Assembly: GCA_913057205.1 (NCBI GenBank)
Contig: CAJXNO010000002.1
Span: forward strand, 62,001-126,000
Reading direction: 5' to 3'
Length of the DNA stretch: 64,000 bases
From: an uncultured Flavobacteriales bacterium
GTDB lineage: Bacteria; Bacteroidota; Bacteroidia; Flavobacteriales_G; Salibacteraceae
Positions within the stretch are counted from its first letter, which is position 1. Each line of letters starts with the position of its first letter. The notes below the pieces were generated by a model. That model made no database searches and was not told the origin of the DNA. It saw only the letters and a list, made by a program, of their open reading frames with translations. Below, piece after piece: positions 57,218-63,410 of the stretch. Both the position numbers and the translations under genes were made by a program.

Positions 57218-58879
57218 CTACATTCTTCTAACTAATGCATGGAGCATTGTGGACAACAGGAGCACTGCAACGCATCCGATCGCGTTGAACATCAGGTAGC
57301 CGATCTCTTCGCTGAAGAAAGCAAAAAGGCTCAGAACCATGACCTCGGATACAATGGCAGCGACAAATACATGCGTACCTGAAAAACGCTTGAGGAAAAC
57401 TGCACATAGAAAAACACCAAGGATGGTACCATAGAACAAGGAGCCCAACAGGTTCACCAACTCAATCAAGTTATCAAACAACCGAGCAGCCAATGCAACG
57501 CTGATGGCGATGATGCCCCAGGCTACGGTGATCCATTGGCTGATGCGTACCTCCAGCGATTCTGTACGTTGGATACCTGGTTTCAACCGCTTGAAAAAGT
57601 CATTCATTGTTGTTGTAGACAAGGCATTCAATTCGCTTGCTGTGGATGACATGCCGGCGCTGAGGATGACCGCTAAGAGCAAGCCGATGGCTCCATGAGG
57701 AAGGTAGTTCAGCACAAAGCTGATGAAAACGTAATCCGAATCCTTGGTCTCCACATCCGGCGCAACTTCAGCGGCGCGTTCCTGAAACGCCATTCGCGTT
57801 TGATCCAACTGTGCTTTTACCTCAAGCAGTGCAGGGTCATCAACTCGCCTTCCCTCCTCGATCAGGCGTACCTTCTCTTCAGTTTGGTAGCGATAGGTAT
57901 CTACCAATGCTGCAGCTTCTCCTTTCCCATCCGCAGCAAGCACTTGCTCGATCACTTGTCCGTTGAAATTGATGGGCGTCGGATTCATCTGATAGAATAC
58001 GAAGAGCATGACCCCTGTAAACAAGATGAAGAACTGCATCGGTATCTTGAGGATGGCATTGAACATCAGCCCCATCCTACTCTCTTTCACACTGCTCGCA
58101 GTGAGGTAACGCTGTACTTGACTCTGATCGGTACCGAAATAGCTCAAGGCGAGGAATAATCCACCCGTCAATCCACTCCATATCGTATAACGCGAACTTA
58201 GATCGAAGTTGAAGTCAATGATCTGCATCTTCTCTTGGCTACCCGCATACTGCAACGCCTCCATGAATGTGAGGTCTTTGGTGATGTATTGCACCAAGGT
58301 GTAAAAAGCAAACACCATCCCGGCAAGGATGACCGCCATCTGCCATCTCTGGGTCACGCTTACGGCTTTAGTACCTCCGCTCACGGTGTAGATGATGACC
58401 AACACCCCGATGATGATGTTCAAGGTATTGAGGTCCCAGCCTAATACGCTGCTTAAAACAATGGCCGGTGCATAGATGGTGATTCCGGCAGCTAAGCCTC
58501 GTTGTAACAAGAATAGAAAAGCCGTGAAAAGGCGGGTCTTTAGATCGAAGCGGTTCTCCAAGAACTCGTACGCCGTGTAGACATTCAATTTGTAGAACAA
58601 GGGAACCGCAATGGCGGAAATCAGGATCAGCGCCAGGGGCAACCCTAAGTAAAACTGCAAGAAACCCATCCCGCTTTCATAAGCTTGACCGGGTGTTGAC
58701 AAGAAGGTAATGGCAGAGGCTTGGGTGGCCATTACCGACAAGCCAACCGTTCCCCAGCCTGCTTCTCTTCCACCGCGTAAATAGCTGTTTAAGTCACGTT
58801 GTCTGCGGGTACGCCATGTTCCATAGGCTACGATGAAGCCTAAGGTAAAGATCAGTACGGTCCAGTCAATTCCATTCAT
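57218..58879 (-). CDS. Sodium:solute symporter (SSS family)
   Basis: Encodes 553 residues with about 13 hydrophobic segments. Family features are GWGTVGLSVMATQASAITFL (helix 2 region), GLTGGLFLALSYFGTDQSQV and RYLTASSVKESRMGLMFNAI. A soluble loop of about 70 residues rich in Glu (residues about 320-390) is inserted before helix 9. It is an inner-membrane transporter for an organic solute; the specific substrate cannot be told. The ATG overlaps the stop of a 46-residue membrane-peptide gene (ATGA), indicating coupled translation. The PIG-L gene upstream completes the operon. Confidence 0.9.
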   Translation of the reverse strand: MNGIDWTVLIFTLGFIVAYGTWRTRRQRDLNSYLRGGREAGWGTVGLSVMATQASAITFLSTPGQAYESGMGFLQFYLGLPLALILISAIAVPLFYKLNVYTAYEFLENRFDLKTRLFTAFLFLLQRGLAAGITIYAPAIVLSSVLGWDLNTLNIIIGVLVIIYTVSGGTKAVSVTQRWQMAVILAGMVFAFYTLVQYITKDLTFMEALQYAGSQEKMQIIDFNFDLSSRYTIWSGLTGGLFLALSYFGTDQSQVQRYLTASSVKESRMGLMFNAILKIPMQFFILFTGVMLFVFYQMNPTPINFNGQVIEQVLAADGKGEAAALVDTYRYQTEEKVRLIEEGRRVDDPALLEVKAQLDQTRMAFQERAAEVAPDVETKDSDYVFISFVLNYLPHGAIGLLLAVILSAGMSSTASELNALSTTTMNDFFKRLKPGIQRTESLEVRISQWITVAWGIIAISVALAARLFDNLIELVNLLGSLFYGTILGVFLCAVFLKRFSGTHVFVAAIVSEVMVLSLFAFFSEEIGYLMFNAIGCVAVLLLSTMLHALVRRM

Positions 58880-59016
58880 GCTACGGCCTCACTTATCCAT
58901 GCGTAGAGCAAGATCTGAAATACCAAGAATGCGATCACACTCAAGTAAAGGCGTGGCCAGTTCTCCTTGGGAGAATCTTGTGCTGTATCGCTATGCTTAC
59001 TGTTCGGATTGCTCAT
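58876..59016 (-). CDS. 46-residue single-helix membrane peptide coupled to the SSS symporter
   Basis: A short gene encoding MSNPNSKHSDTAQDSPKENW, then PRLYLSVIAFLVFQILLYAW and ISEAVA. It has a hydrophilic N-terminus of about 20 residues and one hydrophobic helix. Its stop overlaps the SSS symporter ATG (ATGA), and its start lies within the last 20 bases of the PIG-L gene. Several solute symporters have a small one- or two-helix partner gene directly upstream (for example YhdT-PanF in enterobacteria), so an accessory subunit is plausible. No named family is recognised. Confidence 0.75.
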   Translation of the reverse strand: MSNPNSKHSDTAQDSPKENWPRLYLSVIAFLVFQILLYAWISEAVA

Positions 59017-61495
59017 ACTCCATGATGTTTACCCACAATCGATACGCGCCTGGTACACCAGCAGGAAGTTGTCTGAAGAATGAAATGCCAGTATAAACGA
59101 AGCTTCCTTTGCCAAACTTAGCAAAGAGCAAGCCTCCATTCACCGGATCTTCTCCTTTGTCTGACCACGCTATCAATGGTTTATACTCCTTTTCCCACTC
59201 TCCTGCGAAGTACAGTCCGCGTTCTTGCACCCATCCCGTCCAATCTTCCGCGCCAATCTGATTGGGCGTATTGAAGATGGGGTGCTTGGGAAGCAAGACC
59301 TCCACATCAGAGGTTTCATCCGTTACCCGGTCGCGGGAAAGCGACATCGGATATGGTCCGATCTGGACTACATTGAGATCATAGGTAGTGTTATACTGCA
59401 CCACCAAATGTCCGCCTTGCATCATGTAGGCGCGCAACACATCTATGTTGGCCGCAAGCGACTCGTTTCTATTAAAGGCTCTGATGCCGGTTACAATGAC
59501 ATCATAGGTCTTCAAATCATCCAAGGTCAACCCCGTTAGGTCTTGTCGAATAACCTCGTAGCCCAGAAGCTCCAGTGCTTCATCTACCTCATCTCCACTG
59601 CCTTCAATATATAGGATCCGCTTACCGGGCGTCAACTGCAGATCGAGCGGCATCAGGCTTACATCGGCAGAGCGATGCAGTGCTATGTAAGGAAGGTGTT
59701 CATAGTCAATGGCACGGTATTGCTGGGCATGCATTGCGCCGTCATGCTGAACGCTGATTTGCAGGTTCCCTGGTTGGGCTCCGGCAATCGCCTCTACGGC
59801 TACCTCGATGGTGCGGACTTGTCTTTTCTTCAAGGAGAAGGAGGCTTCGTGGTGTGCCGCCTTCCATTGTGGAGAAGGCGCATCGACCTTCAAGCCGATG
59901 TTCTCCAGGTCTTGGTGGGCGATGACATCCACTGTGATGGTTTGACCGGCACCTTCTCTGAGCACCAGCGCATTCACAGACGGATTGATGGAAATTGGGT
60001 TCACAAATACAAGCGGATCAGAAACCTCTCCGATAGAACGGTCATTCCAACGCCTATGCACCGGCGTGCTTGCATTGACAAACTGCCCGTCAACTTTAAG
60101 CAAGTAGGGTATTTCCAATGCTTCCTTAGCGGGAACACCGATTAAGTCTTTCCGAGGAAGTCGGTAAAGCCAGCCATCGTGATCGAGGTCTAACCAAAAG
60201 GGATTGCTCGTAGTGAGCGGTGCTGTAAGGATAGCTTCAAAGGTGACCTGATCACCCGCTTTCACGCTGAACGATGTATCGATGACATCGTGCTTGAAAT
60301 CGATCTCCTGATCGAAGCTACCTGAATTATAGACCTCTACCGTTACGGGGTAAGGGGATCCTACCACTACCGGATCCTTGTCTGCATAGACCTCTACCCG
60401 CATGCCGCTGAGGTCGCGTTTAATGGCGTTCACCTTTGCATAGACATCTTGCATGTCTTGCGGTGTGGCCCACATGTTGCGCTGGGCCAGTTTAGGAAGC
60501 AAGGTTTGTTTGAAGTGCTCCAAGTTCGCTTCACGATCGGTGAATTCAAAGGCATCCAGCCAGCGTTGAATAGCCGCTGCGTGTTCTGGCGACTGCTCCC
60601 AAGTACCTGCAAGGGAGTCTAAAAAGTAAGGACTCCACTCCCCTTTCACGAACTGCAAATACTCTTCCTGTACACCTCGGCTCCTCGGGGTACCAAAGGC
60701 TTGACACCGGTGTTTACTGCGGGCGATCGAGGCGATCTCATTCATCCCCATTCCAAGCAGGTCGTTGTATACACCAATGTTTACCCGGTGCATCTGCTTT
60801 TCTGCCAGCTCCGCTTCAGAAAGCTCGATCAAGGATTTATCCCACCAGCTGGACGTATTGTGATAGAGTACGGTGGTTTTCCATGTGCTCAGTTCCTTCA
60901 GCTGCTCCGGATACGCACTTTCATCCGCTGCGAGATCAAAGGCTTCCTCTGCGAGGATGGATGAAGCTTCATGGTGTCCGTGTCCGGCCCTACGTGTAGG
61001 AGGAAAACGCGTGATGATCACATGAGGTCGGTATTTACGGATCACGTAAACCACGTCGTGAAGCACCTCATCCTTTCCCCACAGCTCAAAGCTTTCTTCG
61101 GCACTTTTTGAATATCCAAAATCAATGGCGCGTGTAAAGAACTGCTCTCCACCATCGACCTTGCGTGCCTCTAATAACTCATAAGTTCGAATTACTCCGA
61201 GGGCATCGCCCTTCTCATCACCGATGAGGTTTTGTCCGCCTTGTCCGCGTGTCAGCGACAAATACGCCGTTTCAACGTGTTCTGAATTCTCCAGCCAGCT
61301 GATCAATCGGGTATTCTCATCGTCTGGGTGGGCCGCCAAGTAGAGTACCCGCAATCCGCGCTGAAGGGATTGAATATCTCGGTAGATTTCCACCGTGCTC
61401 TTCAACTCATAAGGCTGCGACCAAGCAAGCTGGACGAAGGATAACAACAAAAGGAAAAGGCTTCCGTTTCTCATTGGGTTCGGATTATGTTTCAT
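58997..61495 (-). CDS. Secreted PIG-L family deacetylase with C-terminal ThuA-like domain
   Basis: Encodes 832 residues with a signal peptide (NGSLFLLLLSFVQLAWSQ; ATG 61495 or 61474). The PIG-L/LmbE zinc motif AAHPDDENTRLISWLE lies at about residue 55, with a second metal motif FPPTRRAGHGHHEASSILAE near 165. The middle (about 350-600) contains beta-sandwich, NPCBM-like segments. The last 200 residues look ThuA/GATase-like (YDVIVTGIRAFNRNESLAAN, GGHLVVQYNTTYDLN). It probably removes acetyl groups from N-acetyl sugars outside the inner membrane. It heads the operon with the small peptide and SSS symporter, suggesting release and uptake of one substrate. Confidence 0.88.
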   Translation of the reverse strand: MKHNPNPMRNGSLFLLLLSFVQLAWSQPYELKSTVEIYRDIQSLQRGLRVLYLAAHPDDENTRLISWLENSEHVETAYLSLTRGQGGQNLIGDEKGDALGVIRTYELLEARKVDGGEQFFTRAIDFGYSKSAEESFELWGKDEVLHDVVYVIRKYRPHVIITRFPPTRRAGHGHHEASSILAEEAFDLAADESAYPEQLKELSTWKTTVLYHNTSSWWDKSLIELSEAELAEKQMHRVNIGVYNDLLGMGMNEIASIARSKHRCQAFGTPRSRGVQEEYLQFVKGEWSPYFLDSLAGTWEQSPEHAAAIQRWLDAFEFTDREANLEHFKQTLLPKLAQRNMWATPQDMQDVYAKVNAIKRDLSGMRVEVYADKDPVVVGSPYPVTVEVYNSGSFDQEIDFKHDVIDTSFSVKAGDQVTFEAILTAPLTTSNPFWLDLDHDGWLYRLPRKDLIGVPAKEALEIPYLLKVDGQFVNASTPVHRRWNDRSIGEVSDPLVFVNPISINPSVNALVLREGAGQTITVDVIAHQDLENIGLKVDAPSPQWKAAHHEASFSLKKRQVRTIEVAVEAIAGAQPGNLQISVQHDGAMHAQQYRAIDYEHLPYIALHRSADVSLMPLDLQLTPGKRILYIEGSGDEVDEALELLGYEVIRQDLTGLTLDDLKTYDVIVTGIRAFNRNESLAANIDVLRAYMMQGGHLVVQYNTTYDLNVVQIGPYPMSLSRDRVTDETSDVEVLLPKHPIFNTPNQIGAEDWTGWVQERGLYFAGEWEKEYKPLIAWSDKGEDPVNGGLLFAKFGKGSFVYTGISFFRQLPAGVPGAYRLWVNIMEYEQSEQ

Positions 61496-62944: not shown

Positions 62945-63410
62945 GGTGGATAGCTGTTAGCTGTCGGCTATCGGCTGTCGGCTATCGGCTGTCGGCTATC
63001 GGCTGTCGGCTGTCGGCTGTTAGGTATAAGACTTAAGGTGGTGATGCTCTCTGTCTTTTCGAGTGGCCATCCCGAGTCCTCGGGATGGATGTATCGAGAA
63101 GGACAGCATCCTGATGGTGAATAGAACGCATTCGGAACCATTCCGCTGCCGCTCTCTATACGTCACGCCTGCGGCGTGACACTCGAGCTGACAGCTACGA
63201 GAAGGCTCAACAGCTAAAAGCTATCTGCCAGAAGCCAGTATAAAGTCTTTTACTCATACCATGTTGTTTTCCAGCGGTATTCGTACTTGTCCGCCTAAGG
63301 CGGACAGGTGTCTTTCGTCCCTGCCTGCCGGCAGGCAGGTGTCGTCTTTCGTCTTTTGTCTTTTGTCTTTTGTCTTTCGTCTTTCGTCTTTCGTCTCAAA
63401 CCAAACTTAA
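62945..63410. repeat. Gene-free mosaic repeat region with heptamer arrays and palindromes
   Basis: No gene seen. From left to right: GCTGTCG/GCTATCG heptamers (about 62951-63022); palindrome CCATCCCGAG-TC-CTCGGGATGG (63067-63088); a module GGAACCATTCCGCTGCCGCTC (63134 on); palindrome GTCACGCC-TGC-GGCGTGAC (63163-63181). Then come palindromes TGTCCGCCT-A-AGGCGGACA (63288-63306) and TGCCTGCCGGCAGGCA (about 63322-63337), and finally GTCTTTY heptamers (about 63343-63396). The order from 63134 on matches, inverted, 34762-34960. Confidence 0.75.

Follow-up and report, generated by a model that had tools for sequence, protein, structure and literature searches.

The frame at positions 58876–59016 (minus strand) of the window, the whole 64,000-nucleotide stretch of DNA analysed, encodes a 46-aa single-helix membrane protein, predicted N-in/C-out and identified by its open reading frame, conservation in relatives, profile matches, dN/dS and topology statistics. 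It is probably an auxiliary single-pass subunit that packs a conserved helix face on the SSS/SLC5-type symporter encoded directly downstream. An unannotated symporter subunit, already suspected in the first-pass annotation, is the reading best supported by conservation, selection, the helix face, linkage independent of the upstream PIG-L gene, and partial mirror-tree correlation.

Frame intact, with an ATG start and the sequence MSNPNSKHSDTAQDSPKENWPRLYLSVIAFLVFQILLYAWISEAVA. A polar N-terminus is followed by a single hydrophobic stretch at about residues 24–43, in agreement with the single helix originally described. The peptide stop and the symporter start overlap in ATGA at 58876–58879 (minus strand), and the same −4 overlap is present in most relatives. 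At the other end, the peptide start overlaps the 3′ end of the PIG-L gene by 20 nt (58997–59016, minus strand), as read from sequence and open reading frames. Both overlaps had been reported before and are confirmed in the sequence. The claim built on them, that of a real coupled cistron, holds by the comparative evidence; an ATGA overlap alone is no proof of a gene.

The downstream gene (57218–58879, minus strand) encodes a 553-aa sodium:solute symporter of the SSF/SLC5 fold, matching PF00474 (E=3e-41, 142 bits, cut-off 22.8) and TIGR00813 (241.5 bits, cut-off 184). The nearest solved structure is SiaT (5nv9), by PDB sequence search and by a fold search with the orthologue at locus L178 (best match SiaT 5nv9, E=8e-19); the symporter part of L178 also matches SGLT, NIS and SMCT1. 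The upstream gene (58997–61495, minus strand) encodes an 832-aa PIG-L-family deacetylase with a signal-like N-terminus (PF02585, E=9e-14), which by the linkage tests is not the primary partner of the peptide. Beyond the Pfam PIG-L domain, the C-terminal 400 residues of this protein (motif GWVQERGLYF, TGISFFRQLPAGVPGAYRL) show good conservation from locus to locus and have no Pfam match. Short intergenic repeats are present at 62950–63400 of the window: GGCTGTCGGCTATC, GTCTTTTGTCTTT and the palindrome CCTGCCTGCCGGCAGGCAGG.

Relatives were compared by tblastn and frame analysis in 42 genomes of the order. The same small frame lies between the PIG-L and symporter genes in nearly every symporter-bearing relative; it is intact in 10/10 of those in the genus and in nearly all members of the family. 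The sole family member without the frame, L033, is also missing the upstream PIG-L gene. The observation named in advance as contrary to a gene, a missing frame in close relatives with the flanking genes retained, was looked for, and the frame survived this check. Five Verrucomicrobiota loci have the identical three-gene order and a recognisably similar peptide (GFR[ST]WR.VY..VF.FF). In the codon substitution check that had been proposed, dN/dS was 0.10–0.31 for the pairs close enough for an estimate, and synonymous changes dominate. Among all pairs pN<pS in 548/561, a description rather than a test because the pairs are non-independent. Conservation and dN/dS rule out a chance ORF. Judged by these comparisons of sequence, the peptide is a selected protein family following one clade of SSS symporters.

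A 39-position profile was built from alignment A1 and applied at a threshold of E≤1e-3. Matches are present in 117/295 genomes of the class and in 31 genomes from other classes of the same phylum; the family extends through the source genome's phylum and occurs also in Verrucomicrobiota. The search for the same frame before orthologous symporters, also proposed earlier, finds the peptide with 116/150 of them and a divergent form with at least 8 more. These presence counts are lower bounds, because the scores of divergent copies (L113, L117, L118, L120, L124, L126, L128, L133) are close to the profile threshold or beneath it. Fifteen of the 31 genomes from other classes were inspected: the symporter is directly downstream in 13, decayed in L182 and not present at L186. 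At L182 (2427–2893) an intact peptide is followed by a small ORF region in which the start and a C-terminal remnant of the symporter are joined and the middle is lost. At L186 (2340–2627) the peptide is an orphan with neither PIG-L nor symporter alongside; L195, of the same genus, has peptide and symporter. After removal of fragments and over-long start choices, 126 distinct peptides of 31–55 aa (median 39) remained. No Pfam or NCBIfam model covers the peptide (hmmscan, 30 members, E≤1); matches are sub-threshold and inconsistent, among them a single chance-level one to the KdpF model PRK14748 (E=0.07). A plasmid search for annotated copies of the peptide gave no match. The source genome has a single copy, and the peptide is lacking from both of the further SSF paralogues that could be examined there. 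Size and hydrophobicity would also suit a small toxin or stress peptide with a single helix and no link to transport, and one member has a sub-threshold Hok-like match (E=0.05); the constant position ahead of one clade of symporters, together with the single copy in the source genome, makes such a role scarcely credible.

The 126 distinct peptides have one hydrophobic segment each, with a mean KD19 of 2.44. Lys and Arg lie mainly on the N-terminal side in 120/126, and the peptide is therefore predicted to be N-in/C-out, with an outside tail of about 4 residues. Tyr24 is present in 126/126 and Trp20 in 119/126. The conservation moment is largest at 100 degrees per residue, the alpha-helical period (permutation p=0.0003), and thus one face of the helix is kept. 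By column conservation (n=126) this face consists of W20, Y24, V27, L31, I35, Y38, S42 and V45, encoded at 58882–58959 (minus strand), with the membrane helix at about residues 24–43. One-sided conservation is as expected of a helix packing on a partner.

Invariant Tyr, the helical face and a dN/dS of 0.10–0.31, indicative of selection on amino acids, also bear on whether the peptide is inert, its translation serving only to bring ribosomes from the end of PIG-L to the symporter start for re-initiation. In most genomes the frame overlaps its two neighbours tightly, which would fit such a coupler. In a few genomes the peptide is nevertheless kept although about 70–196 nt separate it from the symporter, and in 4 genomes it is kept in trans; together these features render coupling as the sole function highly improbable.

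In the class, 108 of the 117 strong matches lie directly upstream of the symporter. The other 9 comprise 4 at contig ends running into the first residues of the symporter, 1 at a contig break and 4 unlinked. In three peptide genomes a full symporter match is lacking for the sole reason that the contig stops within that gene. The deacetylase is the other possible partner, with the peptide anchoring the secreted enzyme in the membrane or acting as its chaperone. The peptide usually follows PIG-L, and in 4 genomes of 2 genera (L098, L099, L100, L105) it is linked to PIG-L with the symporter elsewhere. Set against this are 20 genomes (15 genera) in which peptide and symporter are together and PIG-L is not adjacent; direct reading of these 20 loci found no PIG-L upstream of the peptide, and the neighbours there (named by eye) are instead MutS2-like, Aat-like, metal ABC permease-like and others. 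Moreover, none of the 9/295 genomes with PIG-L and without the symporter has the peptide. It is likewise found in 0 of the 135/295 genomes without PIG-L and symporter.

Co-variation was analysed in three-gene loci by partial mirror-tree correlation. Peptide and symporter, given PIG-L, are correlated at r=0.46 (33 loci, Verrucomicrobiota included), 0.33 (28 loci) and 0.34 (22 loci), the latter two without Verrucomicrobiota; for peptide and PIG-L, given the symporter, r is about zero (−0.13, −0.06 and −0.08). The symporter correlation was reached by 0/2000 permutations, which ignore species relatedness, a partial confounder. Linkage and mirror-tree disfavour PIG-L as the partner, and service to the deacetylase is very unlikely. 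As far as gene linkage and co-variation can tell, the symporter, and not the deacetylase, would be the partner. A workable way to separate micro-subunits from chance ORFs is to combine partner swap in gene order with partial mirror-tree correlation.

PIG-L, peptide and SSF is the commonest gene order in two phyla, which would also suit a peptide that tethers the periplasmic deacetylase to the symporter and hands on the product. The outside tail of about 4 residues leaves little to hold an enzyme, and the peptide–symporter pair is kept in genomes without an adjacent PIG-L; a tether is accordingly a very doubtful role. Independently of any tether, a deacetylation product is a candidate substrate for import by the symporter, as suggested by the usual neighbour, a PIG-L-type deacetylase whose N-terminus is signal-like.

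As an auxiliary subunit of the symporter, the peptide would lie in the inner membrane, with the N-terminus cytoplasmic and the short tail outside. Its conserved helix face would bind the downstream symporter directly, and the peptide would aid symporter folding, stability, membrane insertion or the transport activity or cycle, much as MAP17 does for SGLT2. Through the ATGA overlap, both proteins would be made jointly and in fixed proportion. The MAP17 helix is required for full SGLT2 activity and, in the structure of SGLT2, lies against TM13 with the fixed bundle domain; the role of MAP17 is still debated (PMC10803289). The likeness of the peptide to MAP17 (PDZK1IP1; auxiliary subunit of human SGLT2/SGLT1) lies in the one membrane helix and the SSS/SLC5 symporter, whose fold the symporter of the peptide shares. 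MAP17 differs in being eukaryotic and larger, with regions outside the membrane, whereas the peptide is 31–55 aa and gene-linked, and its binding is putative. No homology was detected: a profile search of PDB chains, SGLT2–MAP17 entries included, gave no MAP17 chain at E≤10, and there is no Pfam match.

At L178, a single stop codon separates peptide and symporter, which share one reading frame. The locus was modelled reading through that stop (AlphaFold2, 58 rows), a device and not a natural protein. The model has a pLDDT of 85.2 and a pTM of 0.84; the peptide is one helix (residues 11–36, pLDDT about 84), and the linker is disordered. Natural peptide–symporter fusions were looked for and none was found; the in-frame cases stop before the symporter. 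A further arrangement would be that of a detached 14th helix, in which a 13-helix SiaT/NIS-like symporter (N-out, C-in) gains a separate N-in/C-out peptide in the orientation of TM13 in SGLT-type symporters. It is drawn from how the peptide is predicted to be oriented, from conservation on one side of its helix and from the lack of an extra helix in the symporter, and is considered unlikely; if true, a helix that SGLTs have in cis would be provided in trans by bacteria, and MAP17 would be a parallel.

Small membrane proteins encoded just before an SSS symporter are YhdT (DUF997) with PanF, YjcH (DUF485) with ActP, and the SSS small subunit DUF4212/TIGR03647; these are of about 75–105 aa and have two helices. 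Gene placement is alike in the peptide, which differs in its length of 31–55 aa and its one helix. None of 30 members matches the DUF997, DUF485 or DUF4212/TIGR03647 models (hmmscan, Pfam and NCBIfam, E≤1), and the comparison with YhdT/PanF drawn in the first-pass annotation is therefore retained as a likeness of gene arrangement and not of family. MetS is another small subunit of a larger membrane complex. Very small or single-helix partners of membrane complexes, such as KdpF, CydX and AcrZ, are often missed in annotation (Pro-SMP paper, PMC10903887). As a proposed single-helix partner, the peptide is comparable to KdpF, CydX, AcrZ and MetS, which are single-helix or very small; their partner families differ. 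Small helper subunits of transporters are thus a known kind. To our knowledge, no single-helix helper of a bacterial SSS symporter that is conserved phylum-wide and lacks a Pfam or NCBIfam model has previously been described. No papers on the peptide or on the PIG-L/SSS locus were found, which is weak evidence, as most subscription papers were outside the search. SSS/SLC5 symporters form a large, medically important family, and a prokaryotic one-helix subunit that accompanies one symporter clade through a phylum would be a simple, lab-tractable model for such helpers. The peptide adds a nameless family of 31–55 aa missing from both Pfam and NCBIfam.

The peptide is not universal among its symporters. 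A symporter tree (113 rows, quick method) has 12 changes of peptide state versus 19.6 in shuffles. About 19 homologous symporters of the phylum, including the whole of genus g25, are without a detectable peptide, and the absences are in scattered clades, which suggests that the peptide aids the symporter without being essential to it, or that something unrecognised takes its place. A compensating 14th helix in peptide-less symporters was not seen in the seven checked. At three loci of genus g25 (L134, L122, L123) reiterated words CATTCACCATTCGCCATTC, similar to the intergenic repeats of the window, lie between PIG-L and symporter; in this genus the peptide gene may have given way to such repeats. 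The symporter itself carries a clade insert of about 70 charged residues at window positions 57755–57967 (symporter residues about 305–375), between two SSF-matching halves. Long helices are predicted there in L178, and the insert is likely an outside loop before TM8; it might meet the periplasmic PIG-L protein. The orthologous symporter at L196 (G042:C56) is 815 aa long and extends at its C-terminus for about 230 aa past the last helix.
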